The translations under genes and the position numbers were made by a program. From Microbacterium sp. 4R-513 (lineage in GTDB: Bacteria; Actinomycetota; Actinomycetes; Actinomycetales; Microbacteriaceae), in assembly GCF_011046485.1 (NCBI RefSeq), contig NZ_CP049256.1, forward strand, positions 1,054,001 to 1,118,000: DNA of 64,000 nucleotides. Direction: 5' to 3'. The notes beneath the pieces are model-generated. The model had not been told where the DNA came from, ran no database searches, and saw only the letters and a program-made list of their open reading frames with translations. This document shows, one piece after another, positions 6,344 to 63,515 of the stretch (position 1 is its first letter; every line of letters begins with the position of its first letter).

Positions 6344-8501
6344 TCAGGCGACGGGGTCGACCTGACGGCCGGCGAGCTCCTCGATGAGGTCGTCGCCGAG
6401 GCGCACCTCATCGAACGGCGCCGAGATCTCGGCCCGGTCGAGCATCTCGGTCATACGACGGCGGCGCTGACGCGTCACGAGCGTGACGACGGTGCCCGAA
6501 CGACCCGCGCGGCCCGTGCGGCCCGAGCGGTGGAGGTACGTCTTGTACTCGTCCGGCGCGTCCGCCTGGATCACGAGATCGATGTCGTCGACGTGGATGC
6601 CTCGTGCCGCGACATCCGTCGCCACCAGAACGCTGACGCGACCCGACGTGAGGCGCTCGAGGTTGCGCGTGCGCTTGGCCTGGTTGAGGTCGCCGTGGAG
6701 GGCGACCGCGTTGATGCCGGCGTCGTCGAACTGCTCGGCGAGCATCTCGGCGTAGGCGCGGGTGCGGGCGAAGACGAGGGTCTTGCCCTCGCGGTCGACG
6801 AGGGATCCGAGGATCTCCGCCTTGTCGCGGTGGTCGATCACGAGGACGCGGTGGTCGATCGTGCCGGAGTCCTGGTCCTCGCCGGCGACCTCGTAGACGG
6901 CGGGCTCGACGAGGAACTCCTCGACGAGGCCGGCGACCTCGCGGTCGAGCGTGGCCGAGAAGAGGAGCTTCTGCGAGCCCTCGGCGGTCAGGCGCAGGAT
7001 CCGCTGCACGGGCTCGAAGAACCCGAGCTCGCACATGTGGTCGGCCTCGTCGAGAACCGCGATCCGGATCTCGGAGAGGTCGAGCTTGCCCTGCTCCACG
7101 AGGTCCTCGATGCGACCGGGCGTGCCGATGATGATGTCGACGCCCTTCTTGAGCGCACCGACCTGGCGGGCCTGCGGCACGCCGCCGTAGATCTGGGTCG
7201 TGAAGAGGCCCACCGAGCGTGCGATCGGCTGGATCGTGCGGTCGATCTGCAGGGCGAGCTCACGCGTCGGCGCGAGGATGAGCGCCTTGGGCGAGCGGCC
7301 GAACTCACGGCGCTGCCCGGCCTGCGAACGCAGGATCGACTCGACGAGAGGAGCGCCGAAGGCGATCGTCTTGCCGGAGCCGGTGCGGCCGCGCGCGAGC
7401 ACGTCCTTGCCCTCCAGGATCGCGGGGATCGTCGACGCCTGGATCGGGAACGGCGCAGCGGCGCCGAGATCGGCGAGCACTCGGACGATGTTCTCGCCGA
7501 GACCGAGGTCGCCGAACGAGGTGCCGGCGACGTCCTCGGCCTGCACGGCCTCGGCCTGCAGGCGCTCGTGGACGACGTCGACGCGGTCCTCGTGGGCCTT
7601 GTCACGGGCGGGGGCGGAGCTCCAGTCCGAGCGGCCCGGGCCGTCGTTGCGGCGCGGACGGTCGTCCCGACGCGGGCGGTCGTCGAACGAGCGGGCCGGA
7701 CGGTCGCCGTATTCGCGACGCGGGCGGTCGTCGTTCGAACGCGCCGGACGGTCGTCTCGACGGGGACGGTCGTCGTAAGAGCGAGCGGGACGGTCGTCCC
7801 GACGGGGACGGTCATCGTAGGAGCGCGCCGGGCGGTCGTCATACGAACGCGTCGGGCGGTCGCCTGCCGAACGGGGGGGGACGGTCGCCGTACGAACGGG
7901 CCGGGCGGTCGTCGCGACGCGGGCGGTCGTCCGAGCGGTACGAGGGACGTGCGTCGCCGAAGGAGCGGCGGTCGTCGCGGTCGACCCGGTCGAGGCGCTG
8001 CGCGCGATCGCCGCGTCCGCGGTCGTCGTGCGAGCGGGCCGGACGATCGCCGTACGAACGAGCCGGACGGTCGTCGTACGAACGCGCGGGACGGTCGTCG
8101 CGACGGGGGCGGTCGTCGAATGAGCGCGCGGGGCGGTCGCCGTACTCCCGGCGCGGGCGGTCGTCGAACGAGCGCGCGGGGCGGTCGTCGCGGTCGTACC
8201 GGGGGCGGTCGCCGTGGCCGCGGCCCGAAGCGCCGCTCGCCTGGTTGCGGATGCCGTGCGCCTGCTCGCGTCCGGCCTTCTCCTGCGCCGTCCAGCGGCG
8301 CTTCGCCGGCGCGGTCTCAGCCGACTCGGCGCGGTAGCCGCGGTGGTTCGGGCTCTTGCTGCCGGGCTTCGAACCGTACGAGCGCTCGGATGCCGGGGCA
8401 TCCGTCCGCCGCTTGCGGTCCTGGAAGCTCGTCTTGGCGCCGTAGCGCGGCTCGAAGTTCTTGGCGGGTCGGCCGCCGGCAGGCTTCTTGTTCTTGGGCA
8501 T
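6344..8501 (-). CDS. DEAD-box RNA helicase with Arg/Asp repeat N-terminus (frameshifted in this sequence)
   Basis: Start ATG 8501 (MPKNKKPAGG) behind AGAAGGA. The first about 210 codons form a low-complexity tail of degenerate DRPARSYDDRPRRD units. The helicase core carries FPIQASTIPAIL (Q motif), GRTGSGKT (I), PTRELALQI (Ia), GTPGR, LDEADH (II), SATLD (III), TDVAARGIHVDDI and HRSGRTGRAG (VI). An RNA-remodelling, perhaps cold-stress, role is inferred. The G8 run at 7873-7880 shifts the frame; with seven Gs tail and core join in one protein of about 718 residues. Confidence 0.85.
7640..8220 (-). repeat. Degenerate tandem repeat encoding DRPARS(Y/F)DDRPRRD
   Basis: Many imperfect copies of a 21-45 base unit encode alternating Arg- and Asp-rich peptides in the helicase N-terminal tail. 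The phase-breaking G8 run lies inside it. Confidence 0.7.
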
Positions 8502-8802
8502 GGGTGTGTCCTTCTGGGTTCTCTCGCACGAGAACAGCACTCCTCAGTGCGCGCACAGGCGCGGCCGCTCAGCGGCGGCGTGGAGTAACCCGGACTTGCG
8601 TCGGCCGGGGGCCATTCACAGTGATGGTCGTCGGAGCGGATTCGCTCCCACCATCGGCCCCTTGGACTCACAAACCCATCCGCGCGCACGGCGCGGGGTC
8701 CAGAGCCGACCGAGACAGACTATCGGACGCCCCTGAGAGGATGCCTGGCGCCGAACCCGCCCCGCGATGCGAGCGCCGCCCGCGCCACCGGAGAATGGAG
8801 GC
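8502..8802. other. Intergenic region between helicase and ABM-like gene
   Basis: About 300 bases between divergent genes with no convincing ORF. The helicase side could be a long 5' leader, as is common for DEAD-box helicase genes. A short inverted pair (GGAGCG/CGCTCC) lies near 8634-8650. No clear promoter is visible for either side. Confidence 0.3.
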
Positions 8803-9420
8803 ATGGCCGAGCCCGATTCCCACCCGATCACCGTCGCGATCGAGCGACGCATCGACCCCGACCGCACCGTGGAGGCGACGAGCTGGATGCAGGCGGGCAC
8901 CGACCTCGCGACGGGCTTCGCCGGCTTCCTCGGGTCGGGCTGGGTGCGCGCCGGCGAGGGGTCCGACCTCTGGTACATGCTCTACCGCTTCCGCGACATG
9001 GCGACGCTCGAGGCGTGGGAGGAGTCGCCGCAGCGCTCCTGGTGGCTCGACTCGGGACGCGCGTTCGCGAAGGAGGTGCGCGTCGAGCGACGGACCGGCA
9101 TCGAGGGCTGGTTCGATGCGCCGTTCGCGACCCACATCGAGACGCGGCAGTTCGATGAGGGCCCCGCGTCGCCGACCGGACCGATCCAGCAGCCCATCCC
9201 CGCCGCGCCGCCCCGCTGGAAGCAGGCCGTCACGATCTGGCTCGGCTTCTTCCCGACGAACCTCCTCGCCTCGTGGCTGCTCGGCTTCGTGCCCGGCTTC
9301 ACCGAGTGGCCCCTGTACGCGCGGGTGCTGCTCGCGACTGTCCTCCTCACCCCCGTCATGACCTACTTCGTGCTCCCGTGGGTCACCCGCGCGCTGCGCC
9401 CGTGGCTCCAGAAAGGCTGA
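8803..9420 (+). CDS. Antibiotic-biosynthesis-monooxygenase (ABM)-like domain protein with membrane tail
   Basis: A 205-residue protein. Residues about 7-95 resemble a dimeric alpha/beta-barrel ABM domain (ITVAIERRIDPDR, then FLGSGWVRAGEGSDLWYMLYRFRD, then LEAWEESPQRSWWLDS). The last about 60 residues hold two TM segments (WLGFFPTNLLASWLLGFV and LLATVLLTPVMTYFVLPW). The ATG at 8803 is chosen for its CGGAGAA ribosome site; an in-frame ATG at 8767 is possible. It ends one base before the aldose-epimerase-like gene, so the two are likely cotranscribed. The substrate is unknown. Confidence 0.65.
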   Translation: MAEPDSHPITVAIERRIDPDRTVEATSWMQAGTDLATGFAGFLGSGWVRAGEGSDLWYMLYRFRDMATLEAWEESPQRSWWLDSGRAFAKEVRVERRTGIEGWFDAPFATHIETRQFDEGPASPTGPIQQPIPAAPPRWKQAVTIWLGFFPTNLLASWLLGFVPGFTEWPLYARVLLATVLLTPVMTYFVLPWVTRALRPWLQKG

Positions 9421-9421
9421 C

Positions 9422-10351
9422 ATGACCGACATCCATCGCCCCACCGGTGAGCAGTACCTCCTGCGCTCGGCCGACGGCCGCGCGACCGCCGAGATCACAG
9501 AGGTCGGAGCATCCCTCCGCGCGTTCGCGGTCGACGGCGTCGACCTCGTGCCGAGGTATCCGCTCGATGCCCCCACGCCCGCGGGCTCCGGCATCGTGCT
9601 CGTCCCCTGGCCCAACCGCGTCCGTGACGGCAAGTGGACCCAGCGCGGCGAGACGCGGCAGCTCGCGATCACCGAGCCGGCGACCGGCAACGCCTCGCAC
9701 GGGCTGCTGCGGTTCGCCTCGTACACGGTCGCGGCCCGGGACGAGGCATCCGTCACCCTCGCGGCGCCCGTCGTCCCGCAGACGGGCTACCCCTTCCACC
9801 TCGGGACGAGCGTGACCTACGCGCTCGAGGGCACCGGCATCGTGGTGCGGCACGCCATCACGAACCTCGGTTCCGAAGACGCTCCCGTCGCGCTCGGCAC
9901 GCACCCCTACGTCTGCATCGGCGATGTCGACACGGCCGATCTCGTGCTGCGCTCCTCCGGGTCGGTGCGGTTCGTCCTCGACGACAAGAAGGTGCCGACG
10001 GGCGAGGAGCCGGTGGATGCCGCGACCGACCTCCGCTCCGGGCGCCGCGTCGGCGAGCTGAGCCTCGACACGGCGTTCTCGGACCTCGTGCGCGACGCCG
10101 ACGGCCGTGTCCGCACGACCCTCAGCGCCCCCGACGGGCGATCGCTCACGCTCTGGCAGGGCGAGGGGTTCGACTACGTCCAGGTCTTCACGACCGACCG
10201 GTATCCGGGTCATCCGCTCGCCCTCGCCGTCGAGCCCATGACGGCGCCCGCCGACGCCCTGAACTCGGGCCGGAGTCTGCGCTGGCTCGCGCCCGGCGAG
10301 ACATGGGAGCTGCACTGGGGCATCGCATTCGACCCCACGCGGAGGGCCTGA
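9422..10351 (+). CDS. Aldose 1-epimerase family protein
   Basis: A 309-residue galactose-mutarotase-like protein. Typical elements are LVPWPNRVRDGKW, NASHGLLRF (catalytic-His region), GTHPYVCIG and the C-terminal ALAVEPMTAPADALNSG. The last resembles the Glu that acts as base in GalM. It would interconvert alpha and beta anomers of a hexose or a phosphorylated sugar. It begins one base after the upstream stop. Sugar specificity is not evident. Confidence 0.85.
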   Translation: MTDIHRPTGEQYLLRSADGRATAEITEVGASLRAFAVDGVDLVPRYPLDAPTPAGSGIVLVPWPNRVRDGKWTQRGETRQLAITEPATGNASHGLLRFASYTVAARDEASVTLAAPVVPQTGYPFHLGTSVTYALEGTGIVVRHAITNLGSEDAPVALGTHPYVCIGDVDTADLVLRSSGSVRFVLDDKKVPTGEEPVDAATDLRSGRRVGELSLDTAFSDLVRDADGRVRTTLSAPDGRSLTLWQGEGFDYVQVFTTDRYPGHPLALAVEPMTAPADALNSGRSLRWLAPGETWELHWGIAFDPTRRA

Positions 10352-10410
10352 CCGCCGCGTGATGCCGAGAACCACCCGCCGGGGATGATGCCGGGGCTCC
10401 CGGGCGCCAA

Positions 10411-10416
10411 TACACT
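10411..10416 (+). promoter_or_regulatory. Leaderless -10 box (TACACT)
   Basis: TACACT ends six bases before the ATG at 10423, and no Shine-Dalgarno sequence is present. Confidence 0.45.
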
Positions 10417-10422
10417 GTGCGC

Positions 10423-11529
10423 ATGCCCGAGCCCCTCGCGCCTGCCTCGGCTCCCGACGGGGCGACCACCTCCTCGACCGCGGCCGACGCTCCTGCGCCG
10501 AGCCTGCGCGTCGTCAACGAGGGTCTCGCCGCGGGCCTCGCAGCAGCGGTCGTCGGCGTCGTCCTGGGTCTCGTCGTCAGCGCGATCCGGCCCGGCCTCC
10601 CGCTCTCGGGCGGCGAATCGTTCGGCGACATCTCGGCCATCGCAGCGGGCGTCGTCGCCGGCGCCTCGAGCGGCACGGCCTACTGGCGGTCGCGCCACTC
10701 ACCCGGACAGGAGTGGCGTCTCGCTCTCAAGCCGTGGAGATTCGCCGTCAATGCCGTCTCGGTCGTGGTCGTCCACACGATCCTCGGCCTCCTCGGGACC
10801 GTCGCGCTGTACTACGTCCTGAGCCAGGGGTTCATCGGGCTCACGATGGAGCCCTTCTGGGCCGCGGTGCTCATGGCCATCAACCTCTTCCTCGCGGCGC
10901 ACTTGAGCTATGTCTCCTCGTCGCGCATGACGACCCAGCGCATGTCCACACTCCTGGTCTCGTTCATCGGCATCGGCGCACTGACCGCGACGATCACGGC
11001 GCCGGAAGCGGACTGGTGGACCTACCACTTCAGCCAGCTGGGAACCTTCCACACCATCTCGAGCTGGATCTTCAACGGCACGCTCATCGCGGGAGGACTG
11101 CTCGTCACGACCTTCGCCGTCTACGTCGCCAACGATCTCCACGCGCTCGTCGACCGAGGCATCCTGACGAACCGCCGCAGCCCGCGCATCGTGTCCACGG
11201 TGTTCGTGGTGATGGGCATCATGCTGGCGTTCGTGGGAATCGTGCCCGTCGACGTGAACCTCGTCATCCACAATCTGTCTGCGACCGGCATGGCAGTCGT
11301 CTTCCTCGGCCTTCTCATCGCGGCACCACGAGTGCTTCGCGGGATGCCCCGCACCTTCTTCCTCACGACATGGGGCTTCCTCGCGGCGCTCGTCATCTCC
11401 GTCGCCCTGTTCGTCGTCGGATACTTCGGACTGACCGCGTTCGAAATCATCGTGTTCTCGCTCGTGTTCGCATGGATCGCCGTCTTCATCCGCTTCCTCG
11501 GTGTCGCCGCACAGCAGCCGTCCGTGTGA
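10423..11529 (+). CDS. DUF998-like multi-span membrane protein (copy 1)
   Basis: A 368-residue protein with about eight predicted TM segments after an Ala/Pro-rich N-terminus. It contains DWWTYHFSQLGTF (about residue 190), resembling the His-Ser-Leu-Gly region of DUF998 proteins, whose function is unknown. The next gene encodes a shorter paralogue with DSQWWTLHFSELGT, so this is a tandem duplication. Start ATG 10423 follows a leaderless -10; a GTG two codons upstream lies in the spacer. Confidence 0.6.
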   Translation: MPEPLAPASAPDGATTSSTAADAPAPSLRVVNEGLAAGLAAAVVGVVLGLVVSAIRPGLPLSGGESFGDISAIAAGVVAGASSGTAYWRSRHSPGQEWRLALKPWRFAVNAVSVVVVHTILGLLGTVALYYVLSQGFIGLTMEPFWAAVLMAINLFLAAHLSYVSSSRMTTQRMSTLLVSFIGIGALTATITAPEADWWTYHFSQLGTFHTISSWIFNGTLIAGGLLVTTFAVYVANDLHALVDRGILTNRRSPRIVSTVFVVMGIMLAFVGIVPVDVNLVIHNLSATGMAVVFLGLLIAAPRVLRGMPRTFFLTTWGFLAALVISVALFVVGYFGLTAFEIIVFSLVFAWIAVFIRFLGVAAQQPSV

Positions 11530-11750
11530 TGGATGCCTCGTCGGCGCGGGTCTTCGCGCGCCGACGAGATTCCTCTGAACGGACTGCCGGGACACGCCCG
11601 GATTCAGTGGACAGGAGCGGGCACGATACGGTATTGGCGGACGGTGTGCCGTCGTCCAGGGGAAATGAGCTGCCCGACGCGCTCGCAGTGAACGCCCGAC
11701 CGGGGAACTTGCCGGCACGCCGGTCGCCCTGACTTGTATGTGGTGAGCCG

Positions 11751-12824: not shown

Positions 12825-15793
12825 CCAGCGGCTGCGAGATGAAGCCGCCGTGGCCGGTGATCCCGAGGGCCATCGGCGTCAGGGCGAAGATCGTCGCGAG
12901 CGCCGTCATGAGGATCGGGCGGAGGCGTCGCGAGCCGCCCGCGATGGTCGCGTCGTGCGCCGACAGCCCCTTCTCGCGGTACTGGTTCACGAGGTCGACG
13001 AGCACGATCGCGTTCGTGACGACGATGCCGATGAGCATCAGCACGCCGATGAGCGAAGCGACGCCGAGGGGCACGCCGGTGATGATCTGCAGCAGGATCG
13101 CGCCCGTCGCCGCGAAGGGCACCGAGACGAGCAGCAGAAGGGGCTGGCGCAGCGACTTGAAGGTCGCCACCATGACGATGTAGACGATCAGGATCGCCGC
13201 GAGGAGCGCGAGCCCGAGCTGCGAGAAGGCGTCCTGCTGCTGCGTCACGACGCCGCCGATCTCGGCCTTCGCCCCGGTCGGCAGATCGACATCGGCGAGC
13301 GCCTGGTTCACCGAGGCGGATGCCGTGTTCAGGTCGTCGGTCGACGGCGTCACCGTCACCGTCGCGGTGCGCTGGGCGCGCTGCGTCGTGATCGAGGTGG
13401 GACCCTGCGACTGCTCGACGGTCGCGACCTGCTCGAGGGGGATGGGGCCCGTCGCGCTCGGGATCTGCAGCTGCTGCAGCTCTTCGATCGTGGCGGGGGG
13501 CTCGGGGACCGAGAGGTACACCGTCAGCGCGGTGTCGTCGATCTCGACCGAGCCGATCGAGCGGGGCTGCATCGTGTTCGAGACGAGCGCCCCGACGGCG
13601 ACCTCCGAGAGGCCGAGCTGGGCGGCGGCTTCGCGGTCGACCGTGACGGCGACGTACGGGAGGGATGCCGAGAGGTTGCTCGTTACCTGACCCACGCCGT
13701 CGGCGCCCTCCACGCCCGAGACGACGGCGTCCGTCGCCTTCTGCAGCGTGTCCTGGTCGGGGGCCGACACGTCGATGTCGATGTCGCTCGAGCCGAATCC
13801 CCCCGCCGCCCGACGCGACCGTCACGGTGCCGACGTCGTCGAGATCGGCGATCGCGTCCTGCACGTCTTCGCGCACCTGCACCTGGTCGGCGTCGGGATC
13901 GGTGGTCACCGAGTAGGTGATCCCCCCGCCGCCGCCCCGGAAGGCGTCGCGCAGCGCCGAGCCGCTCGACCCGATCGACGTCTGCACGGTGTCGACGCCG
14001 TCGACCGAGAGGATCGCGTCTTCGACCTTCTTGGCCGCGGCATCCTCGGCATCCAGGCTCGCGGCGGGACCGACCTCCTGCGTCACGGTGAACGTGTTCT
14101 GGCCGGAGTCGCCGAGGAAGTTGGTCTTCATCAGCGGCGCGAGGGCGATCGTCCCGACGAGCACCAGGACGGCGAGCCCGAGCGTGATCCAGGAGTGGCG
14201 CAGGGTCCAGCCGAGTACCGGGAGATAAGACTTCTGCAGGCGCGTCGGGGGTGCGTCCGGAGCCTCGGGGTCGACCTCGCGGCCCGCCGCGTCGAGCACC
14301 GGCTTGCCGGGCTTGAGGAACCAGTAGGCGAGCACGGGCACGATCGTGAGCGCGACGAGGAGCGAGGCAGACATCGCGATCGTCACGGTGAGTGCGAAGG
14401 GCCGGAAGAGCTCGCCCGTGACGTCGCCGACGAAGGCGATGGGGAGGAACACGGCGACCGTCGTGATCGTCGAGGCCGTGATGGCCGACGCGACCTCCCG
14501 AACGGCGCGGATGATCGACGGGAGCTTCTCGGCTTCGCCGACGTAGTGCCGTTTGATGTTCTCGATGACGACGATCGCGTCGTCGACGACGCGTCCGATG
14601 GCGATCGTGAGGGCGCCGAGGGTCAGGATGTTGAGCGAGTAGCCGAACGCCTGGATGCCGATGAAGGTGATGAGCACGCTGGTCGGGATCGAGATCGCCG
14701 TCACGAGGGTCGCGCGCACCGACAGCAGGAAGATCAGGATGACGATCACGGCGAAGAAGAGTCCGAGCAGCCCCTCCTGCGCGAGCGAGTCGATGGACTG
14801 CTGGATGTAGGGCGCCTGGTCGAAGACGACCGTGAACTCGGCGTCGTCGCCGATCGCATCCTGCAGGTCGGGGATCGCCGCCGTGACGGCCTTCGACACC
14901 TCGACGGTGTTCGCCGAGGGCAGCTTCGTGACCGCGATCGTGAGCGCGGGCTCGCCGTTCACGCGCGAGATCGAGGTGATCGGGTCCTGCTCCTGCGCGA
15001 CGGTCGCGACATCCGCGATCGTCACCGCGCCCGCTCGCGCCTGCTCGGGCGTCGACGGCACGAGGGGCAGGGCCGCGATCTCGTCCGCGGACGACAGCTT
15101 GGCCCCCGTCTGCACGGTGAGCGTCTGGTCGCCCTCGGTCACCGTGCCGCCCGGGAAGAGCACGCCGTTCTGCTCGAGCGCGTCGCTGATTGCCTGCTGC
15201 GAGTACCCGGCAGCGGCGAGGGCCGCGGCATCCGGCGTGATCGTCACGCGCTCCCCGCGACCGCCGACGATCTGCGCGGAGCTGACTCCGTCGATGTCCT
15301 CGAGGTCCGGGATGACGGATGCCTCGAGCTGCGACTGGATGGTCGCCTCGTCGTCGTACCCCGTGACGGCGAGCTGGATGACGGGGAGGTCGTCGATCGA
15401 GAACGACACGACGTTGGGCTCGACGTCGGCGGGAAGGTCGCTCTTGATGCGGTTGATCGCCTGCGTGATCTTCTGCTCGGCCGTGGCGAGGTCGGTGCCG
15501 TAGGTGAAGGACGCCTGGATGATGGACGCGTTCGTCGTGCTCGTCGCGGTTGTGGACTCGAGTCCGGGGATCCCCTGGATCGCCGTCTCGATCGGGGTGG
15601 AGACGTCGTTGTTGACCACCTCGGGGGAGGCGCCCGGGTAGGTCGTGAGGATCGAGAGCTGCGGGAACTCGATCGAGGGGATGAGCTCCTGCTTGAGGTT
15701 CACGAGCGCGAGGCCGCCGAAGATGGCGACGACGATCGTCACGAGCGCGATCAGCGCGCGGTTCTTGAGGCTCAGGACGGCGAGGTTCGACAC
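12502..15793 (-). CDS. RND/HAE1-family efflux transporter (frameshifted in this sequence)
   Basis: About 1,097 codons of an AcrB/YerP-like exporter. It has a first TM with ALIALVTIVVAIFGG, two periplasmic porter loops, GRVVDDAIVVIENI (proton-relay Asp pair in TM4) and a second TM bundle ending VLPTLYNLVEG. The GTG at 15793 follows GAAGG. One extra base in the C6 run at 13799-13804 shifts the frame inside an SGGGGF-type loop; with five, the halves join exactly. A Pro/Ala-rich C-tail overlaps the convergent DUF998-like ORF. No adaptor gene is adjacent, as is usual for Gram-positive RND pumps. The substrate is unknown. Confidence 0.85.
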
Positions 15794-16820: not shown

Positions 16821-17785
16821 TCAGGGCTTCAGGAGCTTGCGGATCGCCGACTCCGGCGACACGTCGAGGTCGAGCAGCCGGCCCTTGTCGTACGCCGCGA
16901 AGACGCGTGGATCGATGTAGCTCGCCCGGGCGACCGACGGCGTGTTCCCGAGCGCCTCCGACGTCGCCCGCACGGCGAGCAGCTCGGCGCGCTTGCGATC
17001 ACGCGCCGTGTCGACGGTCCCGATGCGGGCCAGCGCGTCAGCGGCGAGGATCGTGCCGCGGAGTGTCCGGAAGTCCTTCGCGGTGAACCGCGCCCCGGTG
17101 AGCGTGCGGATGTGGTCGTTCACCTCGCTCGGCGTGAGCGTCAGGCGACGACGGCCGCGGGGGGTACCAGAGCAGGTGGGCTCCCGGCTTGCCCACACGC
17201 AGCTCGTCGATGACGGGCGCGAGCTCGGCGTCGTCGATCTCGATGTAGGCACGCTGCCCGCTCTTGGCGGGGAACGACAGGGTGACGACGGATGCCTCGA
17301 CCGAGGCATCCCGTCTCAGCAGCGTCGTGAGCCCCCCGGCTGCCGTGGCGCTCGAGATACCGCGCCGACCCGATCCGCGGAGCGCCCTCGTCCAGCAGGC
17401 GGAACGAGACGGCGAGCACCTTCTGGCGGCTGAGGCCTTCCGAGCGGAGGGCCGTGGTGACCCGGCGCCGAGCGGAAGGCAGGGCCTGCGCGAGATCGAG
17501 AGCCCGCGCGTACTTGCCGCGGTCGCGCCGCTCGCGCCACCGCGGGTGGTAGAGGTACTGGCGCCGGCCCGCGTCATCCGTCCCCACCGCCTGGATGTGG
17601 CCGAGCGGATCTGCGGAGATCCACACGTCCTCCCACGCAGGCGGGATGACGAGCTCGTGGATGCGCTCGCGGTCGTCGTCGCTCGCGGCGGTGCCATCGG
17701 GCGCGATGTACCGGAAGCCGGATCCCGCGCGGACCCGCCGGATGCCGGGGTCCTGGCCCGGCCGCACTCGTGTCAGCCGTGCCAT
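16821..17785 (-). CDS. Type IB DNA topoisomerase (two frameshifts in this sequence)
   Basis: About 320 codons of a poxvirus-like bacterial topoisomerase IB. Visible are GFRYIAPDG, the PPAWEDVWI segment, RYLERHGSRGLTTLL, FPAKSGQRAY, LTPSEVNDHIRTLTGARFTAKDFRTLRGT and the late region with the probable active-site Tyr (SYIDPRVFAAY). It would relax supercoils through a 3'-phosphotyrosine intermediate. The frame is broken twice by one extra base, in C6 17332-17337 and G6 17159-17164; removing one base in each restores the whole protein. The start lies 12 bases after the SAP-domain gene, so they are probably cotranscribed. Confidence 0.85.
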
Positions 17786-19586: not shown

Positions 19587-20615
19587 ATGACTCTCGAGAA
19601 GTGGATCATCCACCCCGGCGAGACGCGTGTCATCGACATCGAGGACGTCCGCAAGCTCAAGGTCGGCCTCGTCGGCGGTCAGATCGACGTCGTCGCCCAC
19701 GATGAGCCCGGCGTCCGGATCGAAGTGCACGCCGTCACCATCAAAGACCTCCGCATCGAGGCGACGGGCGACGTCGTCGAGATCGACCACCCGCAGCTGC
19801 GCTGGGACAACTTCCTCGAGGTGTTCCGCAACTTCGGGTCGAGCGGCCCGAAGGCCGAGATCAGCGTCGCCGTCCCGCGCGACGTCGCGCTCAACCTCGG
19901 TGTGGTCACGGCGAGCGCGCTCGTGTCGGGCATCCGCAGCGACGTCAGGCTGAACACCGTGTCCGGCGACATCATCGCCGACGGCATCACGGGCGACGCC
20001 TCGGTCAACGCCGTCTCGGGCGACGTGCAGATCCGCGAGCTCACCGGCTCGCTGAGCGCCAACAGCGTCTCGGGCGCCGTCGCGGCGACCGGCTCGCTCC
20101 GCAAGGCCACGATCGACACCGTGTCGGGCGCCGTCATGGTCGACTCGACCGGCGAGGTCCACTCGGTCAACCTCAACACGGTCGCGGGCGGCGTCACGGT
20201 GCGCCTCGACGACGGCCTCCCCGCCAACTACGCGATCCGCAGCGTCAGCGGCCGCGTCCAGGTCGACGGCGTCGTGCGCTCCGGCAAGGGCGGATTCACG
20301 ACCAATTACGCCGGATCCGCGGGCGAGCTGAGCGGAACGTTCGCCGACGTCCGCGCCAACACCGTCTCGGGCGACGTCACGGTCCTGCGCCGCGCAGCGG
20401 TCGGAGCGGCCCACGAGACCGTTCGGCTGCCTCAGCACGAGACCGCCGGCCTGCCTCAGGGTGAGACCGCCGGCATGCGCCAGGGCGAGACCGCGGGCGT
20501 CCCGCAGGGTCAGTCCGCCGGCGCACCTCAGGGTGAGCCCGCCCGCCTGCCCGAGAGCGAGAGCAGCGCCGCCGGTGACGGCGGCTTCGAGGCTCCGCGC
20601 GAGGGGGGGCTGGTG
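19587..20615 (+). CDS. DUF4097 family beta-strand repeat protein
   Basis: About 343 residues. The core (residues 60-275) is a right-handed beta-helix-like array of short repeats built on NTVSGD, NAVSGDV and DTVSGAV, the DUF4097 (putative adhesin) signature. After it comes a Gln/Glu-rich tail of HETAGLPQGETAGMRQGE-type repeats (20405-20560). Start ATG 19587 follows AAGGAGA. As written, the frame runs on into PadR through the G7 run at 20603-20609; with six Gs it stops at TGA 20613-20615 of the corrected frame, overlapping the PadR ATG (TGATG). A cytoplasmic partner role for PadR is inferred. Confidence 0.75.
20405..20560 (+). repeat. Tandem ETAG(L/M/V)PQG-encoding repeat
   Basis: About six imperfect 24-27 base units encode ETAGLPQG-like peptides between the DUF4097 core and padR. 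It is probably a flexible linker. Confidence 0.55.
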
Positions 20616-21236
20616 ATGCCCCCCGTCTTCTCCCACGGCGACCTGCGCCTGTACCTGCTGAACCTCCTCGACGAGGGACCGCGGCACGGCTACGACATCA
20701 TGCAGGCGCTCTCCGACCGCACGGGCGGCACCTACACCCCGAGCGCCGGGACGATCTACCCGCGCCTCGCGAAGCTCGAGGAGGAGGGCCTGGTCACCAA
20801 GACCGTCGACGGTCGCAAGACGGTCTACCAGATCACTCCGGCGGGCCACGCCGAGGTCGAGGCGCGCGCGGGCGACCTGCAGGGCATCGAGGCCGGCCTC
20901 GCCGACTCGGTCCGGCTCATCGCCGACGAGGTGCGCGGGAGCGTGCGCGAGGCGATGAAGAGCCTCCGCGCCGACCTCGCGGCCGCCGCTCAGGATGAGC
21001 GCGCCGGCACGCGGACGATGACGGATGCCTCGTCCCCCGACGACGATCCGCGCGTCGCGAGCCGCGAGCAGCTCCACCGGGCCGAGGCCGCCGTCGCCGA
21101 GTTCCGGGCCCGCGTGCGCAGCGACCTGCGCACGCACATCGCACGCGGCGGCATGCTCGCCTCGTCGATCGTGGACGACCTCGAGTCGGCCCTCGACGAC
21201 GCCGCCCGCACCGTCACCCGCGCGCTGCGCGGCTGA
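20616..21236 (+). CDS. PadR family transcriptional regulator
   Basis: A 206-residue regulator starting MPPVFSHGDLRLYLLNLLDEGPRHGYDI. The winged helix continues TPSAGTIYPRLAKLEEEGLV, followed by DGRKTVYQITPAG. The C-terminal half is a helical dimerisation region. In this sequence it is in frame with DUF4097, but the overlap TGATG expected after removal of one G suggests two coupled genes. It likely binds the CGATATATCG operators upstream of the pair. Confidence 0.85.
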   Translation: MPPVFSHGDLRLYLLNLLDEGPRHGYDIMQALSDRTGGTYTPSAGTIYPRLAKLEEEGLVTKTVDGRKTVYQITPAGHAEVEARAGDLQGIEAGLADSVRLIADEVRGSVREAMKSLRADLAAAAQDERAGTRTMTDASSPDDDPRVASREQLHRAEAAVAEFRARVRSDLRTHIARGGMLASSIVDDLESALDDAARTVTRALRG

Positions 21237-21362: not shown

Positions 21363-21902
21363 CTACGCCGGCCAGATCTCCTCGTCGTCCGGCACGGGCT
21401 CGCCGAGCGGCACCACGAGGATCGGCCGGTGCTGGCGATGCGCGAGCCGCGCGGCGACCGACCCCGTGAAGAACTCGCGGATCGACTCGCCGATCCCCCG
21501 CTTGCGCGTGCCGACGACGATGAGTCGGGCATCCACGTCCTCGGCCAGGTGCTTGATGGCGAGGGCCGGATCGCCCACGAGCTGCCGGATCGACCATTGC
21601 ACGCCGGATGCCGCGAGCACCGCGTCGGCCTCGGTCCGGACCCTCTCCAGGTCGGCTTCGCCCCCGCCGATGTTCATGTCGATCGGCGCCGAGTGCACGT
21701 AGCCGTCCGGGTCCTCGTAGGTCACGAATCGCGTGACATCGACGTGGACGACCAGGAGGTGGGCACCGAGCACCTTCGCGTAGCGCGCCGCCTCTTTGAC
21801 CACACGCGATGGCTCACCGGGCACGAGACCGACGACGACGGCGCCTCGCACGGCATCCGCTGCTCCCGCTGTATTCGCGACCTCGGATGCCTCGTCCGCC
21901 AT
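21363..21902 (-). CDS. Universal stress protein (UspA family)
   Basis: A 179-residue single-domain Usp. It has AVVVGLVPGEPSRVVKEAARYAK and LLVVHVD near the N-terminus. The C-terminal signature is LIVVGTRKRGIGESIREFFTGSVAARLAHRQHRPILVVP, resembling the ATP-binding G-2X-G-9X-G(S/T) motif. It probably has a role in dormancy or stress. The start MADEASEV at 21902 is preceded by GGAAGGGG at a long spacing of ten; an open frame continues upstream without a ribosome site. Confidence 0.9.
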   Translation of the reverse strand: MADEASEVANTAGAADAVRGAVVVGLVPGEPSRVVKEAARYAKVLGAHLLVVHVDVTRFVTYEDPDGYVHSAPIDMNIGGGEADLERVRTEADAVLAASGVQWSIRQLVGDPALAIKHLAEDVDARLIVVGTRKRGIGESIREFFTGSVAARLAHRQHRPILVVPLGEPVPDDEEIWPA

Positions 21903-22070
21903 TGGTCCATCGCCCCTTCCGCATGCAGGTGTGGGGCCGCCGGTGCCCCGATCCTCCGTGTTATTCTGAATGCTACTCTTACCGGCTCCCCAGCCGGATC
22001 GTGATTGAGCGGGCGAGAGCGAGCGGACCACCCGCGCACTGCCCGCAACTCAGAAATGAGGGGGTCTCGC

Positions 22071-39668: not shown

Positions 39669-40383
39669 TCAGTTCTGGGGTAGATGTAGAACGATCGCGG
39701 CAGGCATGCGCTTGACGATGAAGCGGACGAACGGTCTTGCCAGGGCCGCAGCCTCCGTCGGACCGATGATGCGTGGGGAGACCGTCGAATGAGTGGCGCC
39801 CTTCCAGGTGACGTCGGCCGAGGTCGCCGCCACGACGTTGCGCGCCCAATTGGTGTCCCGTCCCCACGGCAGACCGATCAGCACATCAGTCGGCGACATC
39901 GTGGGCACGATGGCCACCGGAGTGGCGTAGTCCGTGCCGCTCTTGCGTCCGCGATGGTGCACGACGGCCCACAGCGGAAAGCCGCGGCGACCTGCGAGCG
40001 CCGTCGCGATCGGCTGTGTCGCCTTCACCAGGGCGAGCGGCGGGCGTCCCGAACGGCCGCCCCGTGCTCCCCGCAGACCCCGGCCGCCAGACAGCACGCT
40101 ACCGAAGTGAACCGCAAGCACCGTGGCCATCGCTATCGCACCGATCGCGGCTCCGACCGCTTCTCCGCGCGTCCGGATGCCGCGGCGCAGAAGCAGCGCG
40201 CCTGTTGTCGCGTTCGCCGCACTCCACGCGACATTCACCACGGGGGACGACATACCCACGCCGGGCGGATCGGAGAACGGACTGGGGAACGGTCTCCCCC
40301 TGCACACCGTTTACTCCGTGCGGAACGGCGTTGACCACGAGCGCAGCCCCCACGATGGTCCTCGCGACCGTCCTTGCCGACAC
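39669..40383 (-). CDS. Membrane domain plus F420-dependent nitroreductase-like (DDN) domain (frameshifted in this sequence)
   Basis: About 238 codons. The N-terminal part (MSARTVARTIVGAALVVNAV, then HGVNGVQGRPFPSPFSDPPG) and two further hydrophobic helices form a small membrane domain. The C-terminal part (LWAVVHHRGRKSGTDYATPVAIVP, then GLPWGRDTNWARNVVAATSADV) matches deazaflavin-dependent nitroreductases. One extra base in C5 40296-40300 separates the N-terminus; with four, all joins. The GTG at 40383 is backed by a TAGAGT box six bases upstream. Whether membrane and DDN parts are one protein or two is uncertain. Confidence 0.6.
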
Positions 40384-44935: not shown

Positions 44936-46238
44936 GTGCGAATCCTGGTCCTCGGCTCCGGTGCTCGCGAGCACGCCATCATCCTCGCCCTGCGGTCGGA
45001 GGAGGTCGCACACGAGGTCTTCGCGGCGCCCGGCAACGCCGGCATCGCGCGCGACGCGACGATCCTCGCCCTCGACCCGAACGACCCAGCCGCCGTCACG
45101 GACTTCGCGAACACGCACTCGATCGACCTCGTCGTCATCGGTCCCGAGGCGCCGCTCGTCGCGGGCGTCGCCGATGCGCTGCGCGAGCGCGGCATCCCCG
45201 TCTTCGGACCCGGCAAGGCCGCGGCGCAACTCGAGGGCTCGAAGGCCTTCGCGAAGCGGGTCATGGAGGCTGCGGGAGTCCCGACCGGTCGCGCGGTCCG
45301 GGCGCACACGCGCGCCGAGGTCGAGGCGGCGCTCGATGAACTCGGCGCCCCGCACGTCGTGAAGGCCGACGGGCTCGCCGCCGGGAAAGGCGTCATCGTC
45401 ACCGACGACCGCGACGCCGCCCTCGCCCACGCCGACTCGTACCTGCCGAGCGGACCCGTGCTCGTCGAGGAGTTCCTCGCCGGACCCGAGGTTTCGCTCT
45501 TCTTCCTGAGCGACGGCGACCACGTCCTCCCCCCTCAGCCCCGCCCAGGACTTCAAGCGCCTGCGCGACGGCGACGAGGGCCCGAACACCGGCGGCATGG
45601 GCGCCTACTCCCCGCTGCCGTGGCTGGGCGAGCGCTTCGGCGGCTGGGCCATCGAGGGCGAGGCATCCGATCCCGAACAGGCCTTCGTCGACCTCGTCAC
45701 GCGCGAGATCGCCGAGCCGGTCATCCACCAGCTGGATGCCGAGGGCACACCCTTCATCGGACTCCTCTACGCGGGCCTCATCCTCACCGAGCAGGGCGTG
45801 AAGGTCATCGAGTTCAACGCGCGCTTCGGCGACCCCGAGACCCAGGTCGTGCTGCCGCGCCTCGTCGATCCGCTGTCGCAGCTGCTGCTCTCGGCTGCGT
45901 CGGGCCACCTCGAGGATCACCGTCGGCCTGCGTTCGCGGACGCCGTGGCGGTCACGGTCGTGCTCGCGTCGGAGGGCTACCCCGAGGCGCCGATCACAGG
46001 GCGTCCGCTTTCGGGACTGGATGCCGCGGCCGCCGTCGAGGGCGTCCACCTCGCCCATGCGGCGACGGCCGCGTCGCCCGAGGGTCTCGTCGCGACGGGT
46101 GGCCGCGTGCTCAACGTCGTCGGCCTCGGCACGACCTTCACCGAAGCGCGGGACCGTGCCTACCGCGGCATCGCCGAGATCGGCCTGGAGGGCGGCCAGT
46201 ACCGCACCGACATCGCCGCCCGCGTCGTCGAGAACTAA
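44936..46238 (+). CDS. purD: Phosphoribosylamine-glycine ligase (frameshifted in this sequence)
   Basis: About 433 codons of GARS, the second purine step (phosphoribosylamine plus glycine plus ATP). N-terminal MRILVLGSGAREHAIILAL; ATP-grasp segments VVKADGLAAGKGVIV and VEEFLAGPEVSLFFLSDG; then FKRLRDGDEGPNTGGMGAYSP and FNARFGDPETQVVLPRL. One extra base in C6 45529-45534 breaks the frame between HVLPLS and PAQDF; with five the protein is intact. The GTG start is leaderless-type. Confidence 0.93.
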
Positions 46239-49019: not shown

Positions 49020-49023
49020 CGGA

Positions 49024-57325: not shown

Positions 57326-57352
57326 AGGGGCACGGCCGGCCGAAGCGGCCGC

Positions 57353-57358
57353 GATAAT
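57353..57358 (+). promoter_or_regulatory. Leaderless -10 box of purC
   Basis: GATAAT ends six bases before the GTG at 57365. Confidence 0.55.
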
Positions 57359-57364
57359 GGGCGG

Positions 57365-58318: not shown

Positions 58319-58420
58319 ATCGGCGTCTGACGGCGCGGCGGGCGTTGACGTGTCCGCTCCCAGCGAACTCCCAGGTATCGTGACCTCAGCACTACCCCGC
58401 TGAACTCCTGAGGAGCCCCC

Positions 58421-59755
58421 ATGCCCGTCTGGTCACTGCACGGAAACGGCCGCACCGTCGAACCCGGCAGGGTGGTGAAGCCCGACGAGCGACTCAACTG
58501 GGGCGCCACCGTCGCCATCGGCGTGCAGCACGTCATCGCGATGTTCGGCGCCACGTTCCTGGTGCCTGTCCTCACCGGATTCCCGGTGTCGACGACGCTG
58601 CTCTTCTCGGGCGTCGGCACGCTCCTCTTCCTCCTCATCACGCGCAACCGGCTCCCCAGCTACCTGGGCTCGTCGTTCGCCTTCATCGCTCCCGTCACGG
58701 CGGCGACGGCGTCGCAGGGCATGGGGTCGGCGCTCGCGGGGATCGTCGCGGTGGGCATCCTGCTCGCGGCGATCGGGTTCATCGTGCAGTTCGCCGGCAT
58801 CGGCTGGATCGACAAGCTCATGCCGCCGGTCGTCGCCGGCGCGATCGTGGCGCTCATCGGATTCAACCTGGCGCCCGTCGCGTGGACGAACTTCCAGCAG
58901 CAGCCGCTCATCGGCACGATCACGCTGGTCGCGGTCGTGCTCTTCAGCGTGCTGTTCCGGGGCTTCCTCGGCCGCATCTCGATCGTGCTCGGCGTCGTCG
59001 TCGGCTACATCGTCGCCGCGATCGCGGGGCAGATCGACTACAGCGCCGTCGAGAAGGCGGCATGGGTGGGTCTTCCCGAGTTCCACGTCGCCGACTTCGC
59101 CTCGCCCGGCACGTGGTCGGTCATCGCGATGTTCCTCCCCGTCGTGCTCGTGCTGATCGCCGAGAACGTCGGTCACGTGCGCGGCGTCGCGACGATGACG
59201 GATGCCTCGGTCAACAAGTACACCGGCCGCGCGCTCATCGCCGACGGCGCGGCCACGACCCTCGCGGGTCTCTTCGGCGGCTCGGGCACGACGACGTACG
59301 GCGAGAACATCGGCGTCATGGCCGCGACGCGCGTCTACTCGACCGCGGCGTACTGGGTCGCCGGCGCCGTCGCGATCCTCCTGAGCCTCTCGCCCAAGAT
59401 CGGCGCGCTCTTCAACTCGGTGCCCCCGGGCGTGCTGGGCGGGGTGACGACGGCCCTCTACGGCCTCATCGGCATCATCGGCATCAAGATCTGGGTCGAC
59501 AACCGCGTCGACTTCTCGCGTCCCGTGAACCAGTACACGGCCGCCGTCGCGCTCGTCATCGCGATCGCCGGGTTCACGATGCAGTGGGGCGACTTCCAGC
59601 TCGGCGCCATCGTCCTCGGCGCCGCTGCGGCGCTCCTCATCTACCATCTCGGCAACGCGATCGCGCGCTGGCGCAAGACCGGCGCCGACGACGGCGGCCC
59701 CATTCCGGCGGTCGGCCCCATCGGCGGCGACCCGCAGGGCATCGAGGTGCGCTGA
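58421..59755 (+). CDS. NCS2 family nucleobase permease (uracil-xanthine type)
   Basis: A 444-residue, 14-TM NCS2/NAT transporter. The TM1 region is VQHVIAMFGATFLVPVLTGF, TM8-type LVLIAENVGHVRGV, and the signature segment GGSGTTTYGENIGVMAATRV (ENxGxxxxTR). It probably imports uracil or another base by proton symport. Start ATG with GAGGAG six bases upstream. It follows purC, so salvage and synthesis genes are adjacent. Confidence 0.9.
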   Translation: MPVWSLHGNGRTVEPGRVVKPDERLNWGATVAIGVQHVIAMFGATFLVPVLTGFPVSTTLLFSGVGTLLFLLITRNRLPSYLGSSFAFIAPVTAATASQGMGSALAGIVAVGILLAAIGFIVQFAGIGWIDKLMPPVVAGAIVALIGFNLAPVAWTNFQQQPLIGTITLVAVVLFSVLFRGFLGRISIVLGVVVGYIVAAIAGQIDYSAVEKAAWVGLPEFHVADFASPGTWSVIAMFLPVVLVLIAENVGHVRGVATMTDASVNKYTGRALIADGAATTLAGLFGGSGTTTYGENIGVMAATRVYSTAAYWVAGAVAILLSLSPKIGALFNSVPPGVLGGVTTALYGLIGIIGIKIWVDNRVDFSRPVNQYTAAVALVIAIAGFTMQWGDFQLGAIVLGAAAALLIYHLGNAIARWRKTGADDGGPIPAVGPIGGDPQGIEVR

Positions 59756-59804
59756 GACGCTTCCCGCGCCTGGCGGGAAGAACGGCGGATGCCGCGGCGT
59801 TTCA

Positions 59805-59816
59805 ATTCATATGAAT
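59805..59816. promoter_or_regulatory. Palindrome at the start of the dioxygenase gene
   Basis: ATTCATATGAAT, a perfect 12-bp palindrome that is AT-rich in a GC-rich genome, overlaps the first ATG. It is a candidate operator for an unlinked regulator. Confidence 0.4.
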
Positions 59817-60692
59817 GAAATGTCCGCGGCATCCGGCGATCGGCTCGCAGCCGACACGGCCATGGGCGCCGTGACCCTGCTCGTGGCCGACCTCGACCTC
59901 ATGACGCGGTACTACCGCGACGCCGTCACCCTCGAGATCCTGTCGGCGGAGGGCGACTCCGTGACGCTCGGCCGCGCCGGCCGGGCCATCGTCGTGCTGC
60001 GGCACGAACCGGCGCTGCGGCACGCGGCCCCGCGCTCGGCCGGCCTTTTCCATACGGCGATCCTGTTCGAGACGCAGGAGGCCCTCGCCGCCGCGCTGTA
60101 CTCCGTCGCGACCCACGCGCCGGGGACCTTCACGGGCAGCGCCGACCACCTCGTGAGCCAGGCCTTCTACTTCACCGATCCCGAGGGCAACGGCGTCGAG
60201 CTCTATTGGGACCGCGCCCGCACCGAGTGGTCGTGGACGCACGGGCAGGTCGAGATGGCGACGCTGTACCTCGATCCCAACGCCTACCTCCAGGAGCACC
60301 TGACCGAACAGGCGCTGAGCGGCTCGACGGCGCGGGACGCGGCATCCGTCGGTCACGTGCATCTCTCGGTGGGGGATGTCGCGACAGCCCGCGCCTTCTA
60401 CGTCGACGCCCTCGGCTTCGACACGACGGCGTCGCTGGGGAGCACGGCCCTGTTCGTCAGCGCCGGCGGCTATCACCACCACATGGCGATGAACGTGTGG
60501 AACTCGCGCGGAGCAGGACCGCGGATGCCGGCGCTCGGCCTCGGCCGCGTCGACCTGGCGCTGCCGGACGCCGACTCGCTCGGCGCGCTCGAGGAGCGCC
60601 TGCGGCACCACGGCTTCGCCGTGCGCGACGACGGCCGGACCCTGGCGTTCGACGACCCGTGGGACAACGCGATCCTCGCGACGGCGGGCTGA
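59811..60692 (+). CDS. Two-domain VOC protein, catechol-2,3-dioxygenase (CatE)-like
   Basis: A 293-residue protein with two VOC modules: 18-125 (MGAVTLLVADLDLMTRYYRDAVTLEIL, then LFHTAILFETQ, then YFTDPEGNGVELYWDR) and 180-290 (VGHVHLSVGDVATARAFYVDALGF, then ALGLGRVDLALPDADS). His in LFHTAI, His in VGHVHL and Glu in GVELYW would be metal ligands, as in Bacillus CatE. It may detoxify catechols or quinones. Starts ATG 59811 or 59820; neither has a ribosome site. Confidence 0.82.
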   Translation: MNEMSAASGDRLAADTAMGAVTLLVADLDLMTRYYRDAVTLEILSAEGDSVTLGRAGRAIVVLRHEPALRHAAPRSAGLFHTAILFETQEALAAALYSVATHAPGTFTGSADHLVSQAFYFTDPEGNGVELYWDRARTEWSWTHGQVEMATLYLDPNAYLQEHLTEQALSGSTARDAASVGHVHLSVGDVATARAFYVDALGFDTTASLGSTALFVSAGGYHHHMAMNVWNSRGAGPRMPALGLGRVDLALPDADSLGALEERLRHHGFAVRDDGRTLAFDDPWDNAILATAG

Positions 60693-60709
60693 GGTCGTTC
60701 GTCGGCTCG

Positions 60710-60743
60710 GCGCGTTTCGTCTCGCTCCGCTCGCTCAACGACC
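60710..60743 (-). repeat. REP-like repeat, reverse copy
   Basis: GCGCGTTTCGTCTCGCTCCG continuing to CTCGCTCAACGACCG, the same element as in the 57.2 kb cluster. Confidence 0.7.
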
Positions 60744-60979
60744 GGGGGCGAGGCGGAGCGGGGAGGCCCGGTCGTTGAGCGGAGGCGCGAAGCGCCGGAG
60801 ACGAAACGCGCCGCGCCGGCGTTCGACCCTTCGACAAGCTCAGGGACCGGGCCGGGGGCGGGGCGAGGCGGAGCGGGGAGCCCCGGTCGTTGAGCGGAGG
60901 CGCGAAGCGCCGGAGACGAAACGCGCCGCGCCGGCGTTCGACCCTTCGACAAGCTCAGGGACCGGGCCGGGGGCGGGGC
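60744..60979 (+). repeat. 115-bp tandem duplication carrying REP-like and AAGCTCAGGG elements
   Basis: Two near-identical units. The GTCGTTGAGCGG motif starts at 60771 and 60886, a 115-base period. Each unit holds a forward GTCGTTGAGCGG-type repeat followed by CCCTTCGACAAGCTCAGGGA, which itself folds into a hairpin. It fills the interval between the dioxygenase and lacI genes. Confidence 0.75.
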
Positions 60980-60983
60980 GCGG

Positions 60984-61997
60984 CTACACCGAGTCGCGGA
61001 CGACGAGCTCCGTGTCGAGGATCGTCACGTGCCGGGGGTCCTTGCCGGCCAGCAGGTCGAGGAGGATGCTCGCCATGTGCTCGCCCTGGTCGAACGAAGG
61101 CTGACGCATCGTCGTGAGCTGCGGGGAGACCGAGGTCGCGACGGGCGAATCGTCGAAGCCGATGATCGCGATGTCGTCGGGCACCCGAAGCCCTGCCGCC
61201 GCGATGACCGACAGCGCGCCGCGCGCCATCAGGTCGCTCGCGACGAACAGCGCGTCGGGCGCATCGCCGCGGTCGAGGATGCGGCGCATCGCGTCGGCTC
61301 CGCCGTCCGCGGTGAAGCCGCCGTCCTCGACCGGTCCGGCCTCGAGCCCCGCGGCGGCGAGCGCTTCACGGAAGCCCTGCAGGCGGTCGACGCCCGCGGG
61401 CATCGTCAGCGGCCCGGTGATCGTGCCGATCCGGCGACGACCGCGCTCGATCAGGTGGGCCGTGGCATCCCGTCCCCCGCGCACGTTGTCGACGTCGACG
61501 TAGTAGTCGCGCTCGCGCTCCCGCACGGGGCGGCCGCCGTAGACGACCGGCACCGCGGCGGCTATGCGATCGATGAACGTGTCGCTGGTGTGGTGCGAGA
61601 CGATGATCGCCCCGTCCACGGCCCCGCTGCGGACATAGCTCGTCGTCTTGTCGCCGGGGTCGTCGCTGGCGATGAAGAGGTTGAGGACGTAGTCGGAGCG
61701 ATTGAGCCGCGCGTTGATGCCCGAGACGATCGAGGCGAAGAACGGGTCGCCGAAGAAGCGCGTCGTGTCTTCGGGCACGATCAGCCCGATGGCCTGCGTC
61801 TGGCGGCTCGCGAGCGAGCGGGCTGCGCGGTTCGGCACGTAGTTGAGGTCGGCGATCGCTCGCTGCACGGCTTCGAGGGCCGTCGGACTCACGGCCGTGG
61901 AGCCGTTGACGACCCGCGAGACTGTCGATCGGGAGACCCCCGCCGCGGCGGCGACCTCTTCGATCGTCACGGCGAGACGTGACGTGTCGGTGCTCAT
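60984..61997 (-). CDS. LacI family transcriptional regulator
   Basis: A 337-residue regulator: HTH TIEEVAAAAGVSRSTVSRVVNG, hinge helix NRAARSLASRQT, then a periplasmic-binding-like sugar domain (GLIVPEDTTRFFGDPFFASIV, DNVRGGRDATAHLIERGRRRIG, IIGFDDSPVATSVSPQLTTMRQ). It is last in a sugar ABC permease, GH1, lacI array, so it probably represses beta-glucoside use. The ATG has GGGGAG about nine bases upstream. Confidence 0.93.
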   Translation of the reverse strand: MSTDTSRLAVTIEEVAAAAGVSRSTVSRVVNGSTAVSPTALEAVQRAIADLNYVPNRAARSLASRQTQAIGLIVPEDTTRFFGDPFFASIVSGINARLNRSDYVLNLFIASDDPGDKTTSYVRSGAVDGAIIVSHHTSDTFIDRIAAAVPVVYGGRPVRERERDYYVDVDNVRGGRDATAHLIERGRRRIGTITGPLTMPAGVDRLQGFREALAAAGLEAGPVEDGGFTADGGADAMRRILDRGDAPDALFVASDLMARGALSVIAAAGLRVPDDIAIIGFDDSPVATSVSPQLTTMRQPSFDQGEHMASILLDLLAGKDPRHVTILDTELVVRDSV

Positions 61998-62017
61998 GGA
62001 GACAGCTCCCCCCGGGG

Positions 62018-63515
62018 CTAGGCGCCGGCGCCGGACTCCGGGTCGAGCGCTCGCTCGGCGATGATCCGAGCGTATTCCCGTCCGCTGTCCTTGACCGAAC
62101 GCTCCTGGGTGTCGTAGTCCACGCGCACGATGCCGAACCGCTTCTCGTACCCCCCAGGCCCACTCGAAGTTGTCGAGCATCGACCAGTAGAAGTAGCCGC
62201 GCACGTCGACGCCGCTCTCGATCGCGTCGAGGATCGCACCCAGATGCCCGCGCAGGAAATCGCTGCGCTCGGCGTCGTGGACGCGCACCTCGCCGTCGAC
62301 GACCACCGGCTCGTCGTCGTAGGCGGCACCGTTCTCGGTGACGTAGAGGACGGTTCCGGCGGGGGCGGCGTACTCCTCCGAGACCCGCTGCAGCAGCCGG
62401 GTCAGGCCCTCGGGCTGCACCTCCCAGTGCATCGAGGTGCGCGGAAGCCCGCGATCGTACCAGTGCACGTCGGCGGATGCCGGGAACGGCGAGTGCCCGA
62501 GGCGATCGGTCGGGGCATCCCCACCCTCGGGCGGGTTCGGCGACGGCGTGCCGCCGACGAGCTCGCCGTGGTAGTAGTTCACCCCGAGCGCGTCGATCGG
62601 CGTCGCGATCGTCTCGAGGTCTCCCGGACGCACGGCGGCTTCCAGCGCGTCGATGGCCTCGGCATCCACTTCCCGGATGTCCTCGACGATGTCGGCGGGG
62701 TACGAGCCGAGGAACACCGGGTCGAGGAACCAGCGGTTGAACTGACCGTCGATGAGCCGCGCGGCGTTGACATCCTCGGGCTTGGACGGGTCGGCGGGAT
62801 CCGCGACGGTCAGGTTCAGGGTGATGCCGAGCTCGAGCGACTCGTCGCGCTCGCGCAGCGCCCGCACCGTCTGGCCGTGACCGAGGAGCAGGTGGTGCGC
62901 GGCGAGGAGCCCCTCGGTCACGCTGTAGCGGCCGGGCGCATGGAGGCCGGCCGTGTAGCTGAGGAACGACGAGCACCAGGGCTCGTTGAGGGTCGTCCAG
63001 ACCTTCACGCGATCTCCGAGGGCGTCGTGCATGTCGAGCGCGTACTCGGTGAAGCGGTCGGCGGTGTCGCGGTCGGCCCAGCCGCCCTTCTCCTGCAGCG
63101 CCTGGGGCAGATCCCAGTGATACAGGGTGAGCCAGGGCAGGATGCCGGCGCCGAGCAGCTCGTCGACGAGGCGGCTGTAGAAGTCGACGCCTTGCGGGTT
63201 GAGCGGCCCGCCGTCCGGACGCACGCGCGACCACGACGTCGAGAACCGGTACGTCTGCAGGCCCATGCTCTTCATGAGCGCGACGTCGTCACCGTAGCGG
63301 TGGTAGTGGTCGCAGGCGACATCGCCGTTGTCGCCGTTGATGACGGCGCCTGGCACGCGGCAGAAGGCGTCCCAGATCGAGGCCTTGCGTCCGTCCTCGA
63401 ACGCGGCGCCCTCGATTTGGAAGGCGGCCGTGGCCGCACCGAAGAGGAAGTCGGTCGGGAACGGGCGCGCCCCGGTCGCGGTCATGTGCGAGGTGTCCTC
63501 TCTCAGAAACGTCAT
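62018..63515 (-). CDS. GH1 family beta-glucosidase (frameshifted in this sequence)
   Basis: About 498 codons. [19 protein letters not shown] at the N-terminus, TLNEPW (acid/base Glu), [10 protein letters not shown] (nucleophile Glu) and [21 protein letters not shown] near the end. It would hydrolyse beta-glucosides in the cytoplasm. One extra base in C6 62150-62155 disrupts WAWG-YEKRFG; with five the frame continues to TAG at 62018. The ATG at 63515 lies two bases after the permease stop; ATG 63485 is an alternative. Confidence 0.92.

Follow-up and report, generated by a model that had tools for sequence, protein, structure and literature searches.

Reading-frame breaks at G/C homopolymers in the Microbacterium sp. 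4R-513 chromosome, most likely a product of sequencing error

Long-read assemblies are affected mainly by insertions and deletions (indels) in homopolymers, which create false pseudogenes (PMC12007338, PMC8011154). In Streptomyces, PacBio-only assemblies have been described that differ from their short-read-corrected versions at 70, 295, and 335 places; by far the most of these differences were single-base homopolymer insertions, and the corrected version was the better protein match twice as often, although the account of this comparison leaves unsaid in which of the two the additional base stands (PMC6923854). This article concerns a similar pattern in the chromosome of Microbacterium sp. 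4R-513 (assembly GCF_011046485.1), which is represented by a single 3.91-Mb contig (NZ_CP049256.1) with a completeness score of 99.99. The stretch from which the analysis started, positions 1,054,001-1,118,000 of that contig, is 64,000 nucleotides long, has a GC content of 69.9%, and is referred to as the window. The window contains seven G or C runs, and probably an eighth, that are one letter too long for the reading frame used by related species, so that six or seven genes are broken as read, including purD and genes for a DEAD-box helicase, an RND transporter, DNA topoisomerase IB, a membrane/DDN-like protein, and a family 1 glycosyl hydrolase (GH1); most likely this is sequencing error.

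Several features tie the present case to those already described. It shares with the Streptomyces assemblies a high-GC actinobacterial chromosome, a preponderance of single-base homopolymer insertions, and a load of tens to hundreds per genome, but short reads were the yardstick in that account, whereas here the errors are deduced from sequence alone and include under-calls as well (PMC6923854). As in the Nanopore cases reported, homopolymer indels shift frames, inflate pseudogene counts, and are exposed by the sequences of relatives (PMC8011154, PMC12007338). The Pss508 draft is nevertheless described as having a far higher rate (1234 annotated pseudogenes), with deletions after long homopolymers and insertions that are not homopolymer-specific, whereas G/C over-calls are the majority in Microbacterium sp. 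4R-513 (PMC12007338). Frame-shifting indels and scars tied to low-complexity sequence have also been reported in another actinobacterium, Mycobacterium tuberculosis, where they were drawn from 5977 clinical genomes, whereas the present material is a single consensus for which extrapolation gives a hundred breaks or more (PMC8339072).

Frame breaks at runs were compared with frame breaks elsewhere. Breaks were called with a coding-frame model trained on the source genome and its relatives together, in a strict version that demands real stop codons, with a net score of at least 10 as the cut-off and a G/C run of 5 or more as the definition of a break at a run. The sample from the chromosome itself comprised the window and 40 hand-spaced stretches of 20 kb, including four near rpoB and two adjoining the window (864 kb in total); the sample from relatives (1.92 Mb) comprised 80 loci from the purD neighborhood and 20 syntenic stretches from five genomes of the same genus. 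Breaks at runs numbered 29 in the former (3.36 per 100 kb) as against 6 in the latter (0.31 per 100 kb), a 10.8-fold difference (p = 3e-10), the 29 including two at gene junctions (L084:7901 and L095:17679) and two in which one piece is as short as 12 or 24 bases (L095 and L315), and the 6 being counted without such a check. Expressed per coding run of at least 5, the figures were 29/1258 and 6/2686. Away from runs, 11 breaks were called here (1.27 per 100 kb) and 25 in relatives (1.30 per 100 kb), a ratio of 0.98 (p = 1). Given the excess at runs and the parity elsewhere, this genome's surplus of frame breaks is restricted to G/C homopolymers. Among the eight coding runs of at least 7 in the 864 kb, four coincide with breaks called by the model, two (at 7873 and 20603) are read as having an extra base by comparison with relatives, and two are uncalled. 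Extrapolation gives some 130 broken genes genome-wide, a figure qualified by the presence of junctions among the calls and by the strict model's recovery of five of the eight sites in the window, those of the helicase, the DDN-like gene, and 20603 being missed. An initial ab initio frame model had been dropped since it confused frameshifts with overlapping gene pairs, giving 27 calls for 464 kb of the chromosome and 59 for 1.52 Mb of relatives. A first tblastn two-frame screen was retained for the listed sites only; outside the window it was noisy, most of the relatives' loci coming from the surroundings of purD.

An earlier note on this DNA had claimed seven G/C runs with one base too many, at seven sites in at least six genes. 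The runs are present, in order of position, as G8, C6, G6, C6, C5, C6, and C6, and the claim is borne out overall, the case being weaker for the run at 17159 and resting on the protein level for the helicase; the tally of seven runs stands but is incomplete, as it overlooked the probable eighth site. The note had also proposed comparing run lengths with those of related genomes, and this was done by counting how many bases the window has in excess of each relative (the net value) in the alignment of each run with its 30-bp flanks, tallied both by locus and by distinct relative sequence, as some genomes enter twice. The extra base is lacking in independently sequenced relatives at purD, GH1, and the DDN-like gene, and in most loci at the RND run and at 17332. 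For purD (plus strand, 44936-46238), the best 80 of 331 confirmed loci were retained, 78 of them titled Microbacterium, with protein identity of up to 88% over 195 residues. Its C6 run (45529-45534) gave a net +1 in 85/85 loci (81/81 distinct sequences), and TIGR00877 is matched at 1-207 and 248-424 in two frames. The GH1 gene (minus strand, about 63728 to 62018) is broken near its 3' end at a C6 run (62150-62155) that was +1 in 61/61 loci (54/54 distinct), its profile being split into 4-419 and 415-450 with the end of the domain in the other frame. At the C5 run (40296-40300) of the membrane/DDN-like gene (minus strand, about 40383 to 39669), a net +1 was found in 12/12 loci (12/12 distinct); no Pfam family matched this region, so that its homology rests on comparison with relatives, and the name DDN is that of the earlier note.

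The RND (AcrB-family) transporter gene (minus strand, about 15805 to 12502) contains a C6 run (13799-13804) with a net +1 in 27/35 loci (23/31 distinct), the remaining loci giving +4 (six) or +6 (two). Its two pieces match ACR_tran at 4-623 and 672-1020 in two frames (frame-model net score 42), and the open frame is 439 amino acids long, whereas in 54 of the 55 other genomes with a match the best one has at least 983 amino acids (452 in the remaining genome). The topoisomerase IB gene (minus strand, about 17806 to 16821) appears to be broken twice. At its C6 run (17332-17337), +1 was obtained in 55/60 loci (38/42 distinct), with deviating values of 0, +4, and -1 (net score 30.4). At its G6 run (17159-17164), where alignments are poor, +1 was obtained in only 30/57 loci (19/41 distinct), with +2 in 13, 0 in 10, and negative values (-3, -4) in 4 (net score 31.1). 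Both breaks are strong calls of the frame model, fifteen relative proteins switch frame within 17159-17333, and the Topoisom_I profile is matched in pieces at 3-71 and 131-201, the latter in the last frame. Open-frame length does not discriminate at this gene (336 amino acids here and similar in relatives). Further possible breaks near 21900-22060, 23482, 26200, and 27050 of the window were not retained, as each had the support of one to three relatives and opposite-strand or short genes were involved.

The longest of the runs is the G8 at 7873-7880 (C8 in the gene) of the DEAD-box helicase gene (minus strand, about 8501 to 6344), the break falling in an N-terminal Arg/Asp-repeat extension, with the DEAD and Helicase_C domains lying within 6344-7735. 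This diverged repeat allows no reliable alignment at the DNA level, where 18 loci gave scattered values with +1 in three. At the protein level, the MPK(N/S)KKP... extension and the helicase share one frame in all 11 relatives readable on the right strand (21 were listed, the other 10 being read on the wrong strand and uninformative), while in the window the frame matching the relatives' extension extends as far as the G8, with the core of the helicase encoded in another frame. Four relative proteins place the change of frame at 7864-7906 and three others at 8406-8436, a split due to the repeat being open in its second frame as well; with two competing placements, the position of this break is less certain than those of the other sites. 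The repeat itself (7700-8501) is long, Arg/Asp-rich, and built of RDDRPARS-like units, and Microbacterium relatives possess it with very different lengths and units.

In the window, all breaks at runs are +1, which the earlier note had taken as a systematic, shared direction. This holds for the window only: in the 800 kb outside it, calls at runs comprised 15 of +1 and 9 of -1, two of the nine -1 calls being gene junctions and one having a piece of only 24 bases. The shared +1 direction is thus a feature of the window and not of the genome. All 9 of the -1 calls concern runs with an apparent length of 5, and 17 of all 20 +1 run calls concern runs with an apparent length of 6 or 7. Twenty-six candidate breaks outside the window were tested piecewise against NCBIfam or Pfam profiles and counted as confirmed if both sides matched one model in order; candidates such as L313, L315, L320, and L309 lie outside these 26. 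Eleven were confirmed, some of them weakly (e.g., the ABC permease and UbiA), and two more are suggestive (different or repeated models). Eight of the confirmed breaks are +1 (phosphate permease, ABC permease, GDP-fucose synthase, family 13 glycosidase, LysR, a NarL-like regulator, UbiA prenyltransferase, and gabT) and three are -1 (an RbsR-like regulator, alpha-rhamnosidase, and aconitase). Four candidates proved to be gene junctions (Ada/Ogt, two ABC-operon junctions, and a pair of aldehyde dehydrogenases), and nine had a family match on one side or on neither. Breaks occur both in the window and in the 800 kb outside it, and the profile-tested families are mutually unrelated; the breaks are spread over the chromosome regardless of gene function. 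Two profile-confirmed breaks, those of the family 13 glycosidase (L088:7516, +1) and the RbsR-like regulator (L091:4465, -1), were called at positions with no G/C run of at least 5.

Three of the affected genes deserve consideration together. purD is single-copy, with one match to the purD C domain in the genome. The only aconitase-domain genes in the genome are acnA and leuC, and both are split: acnA is matched at 2-396 and 409-749 of its model, with a -1 break at a C5 run (L100:18854-18858), opposite to the direction seen in the window, and leuC (3167725-3169081, outside the sampled stretches) is matched at 2-48 and 55-460 of TIGR00170, with a break called as +1 near a run of four G. Combined loss of purD, acnA, and leuC would predict auxotrophy for purines, glutamate, and leucine. 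In the living cell, purD is probably intact.

Residual homopolymer-length errors in the consensus of a probably long-read, single-contig assembly are very probably the origin of the extra letters, both the sequencing origin and the platform being what we infer from the data at hand. In a genome of 70% GC, coding DNA is rich in G/C runs of four to seven; an unpolished consensus would make some of these too long (mostly those that now read as 6-8) and others too short (those that now read as 5), every miscount inside a gene shifting the reading frame. Consensus error is best supported because the excess is confined to G/C homopolymers and because purD, acnA, and leuC are hit together, and it gains further support from the fact that both sides of the breaks retain coding character and, in genes for which there is a family, still match it. 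The earlier preference for consensus over-calling rather than six pseudogenes therefore stands, without the argument from a shared direction on which it partly drew. The main rival is that the frameshifts are real and recent, with indels gathered in G/C runs of a slippage-prone lineage or during passage in rich medium. Such frameshifts would account for an excess restricted to runs and for undecayed sequence past each break, as expected of fresh slippage, but they are unlikely, as the extrapolated 130 or so breaks would need a near-simultaneous origin, purD, acnA, and leuC would all have been lost together, and runs of only five or six bases seldom slip. A natural slippage hypermutator, in which G/C tracts of five to eight vary chromosome-wide, at least 100 genes (purD, acnA, and leuC included) are out of frame at any time, and the population is a mixture of complementary, reversible auxotrophs, is very improbable. 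Some considerations do weigh against consensus error. To our knowledge, Actinobacteria are without MutS/MutL, so that slippage at runs is plausible; most of the genes confirmed as broken seem unnecessary for growth in rich medium, which would also hold for real mutations; and the 1.92 Mb from relatives represent mostly one chromosomal neighborhood rather than whole genomes. Furthermore, two family searches covering tRNA synthetase and translation-factor genes found no split between frames, and no unconditionally essential gene was seen broken in them, although such a test has little power, as about 0.9 breaks would be expected in this amount of coding DNA and some breaks leave no trace in open-frame length.

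Two further explanations invoke regulated use of the runs. Phase variation at the helicase G8, suggested earlier, would have the tract toggle the N-terminal extension, and the run is indeed the longest in the window and lies upstream of the catalytic core. The suggestion is unsupported and exceedingly unlikely to be right, however, as the longest G run in the 18 aligned relative loci is 4, the tract being neither conserved nor recurrent there, and as it sits inside a coding repeat and not at a promoter or start. Most of the other long runs show the same effect: six of the eight coding runs of at least 7 in the 864 kb are read with an extra base, so that the helicase G8 is no exception among them. 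Programmed ribosomal frameshifting or transcriptional slippage at runs, yielding full-length proteins from the shifted genes, would fit the coding character retained by the downstream frames, but the runs and shifts are missing from aligned relatives, orthologues display no conserved shift site or direction, and both directions and many unrelated families are hit, which leaves this mechanism with a negligible probability.

Taken at face value, the genome would seem to be without working purD, leuC, and acnA and, by extrapolation, roughly a hundred other genes, and would encode the false fusions GH1-LacI and DUF4097-PadR. With its single contig and a near-perfect completeness score, it may pass as a reference despite unreliable frames at G/C runs. 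The artifact is an ordinary one, and provides a useful warning on annotation; the comparison of frame breaks at runs with those away from runs, with relatives as the yardstick, offers a read-free test able to flag such genomes. In the window, a 914-amino-acid open frame (60984-63728) joins GH1 with a LacI regulator and looks like a false fusion resulting from the break at 62150.

The G7 at 20603-20609, absent from the earlier note, is probably an eighth site of the +1 type, judged from the frames of neighboring genes. The run lies on the plus strand at the end of a DUF4097 gene (from about 19527), which continues into the gene of a PadR-family regulator (20616-21236), both genes being identified by profile matches. 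The two genes lie in one open frame in the window, whereas their frames differ in all 32 relatives that have both. The offset in relatives is 2 in 25 cases, from which one extra base yields the state seen in the window, and 1 in the other 7, from which it does not. In ten relatives listed, the TGA of the first gene stands directly before, or overlaps, the ATG of the PadR gene.

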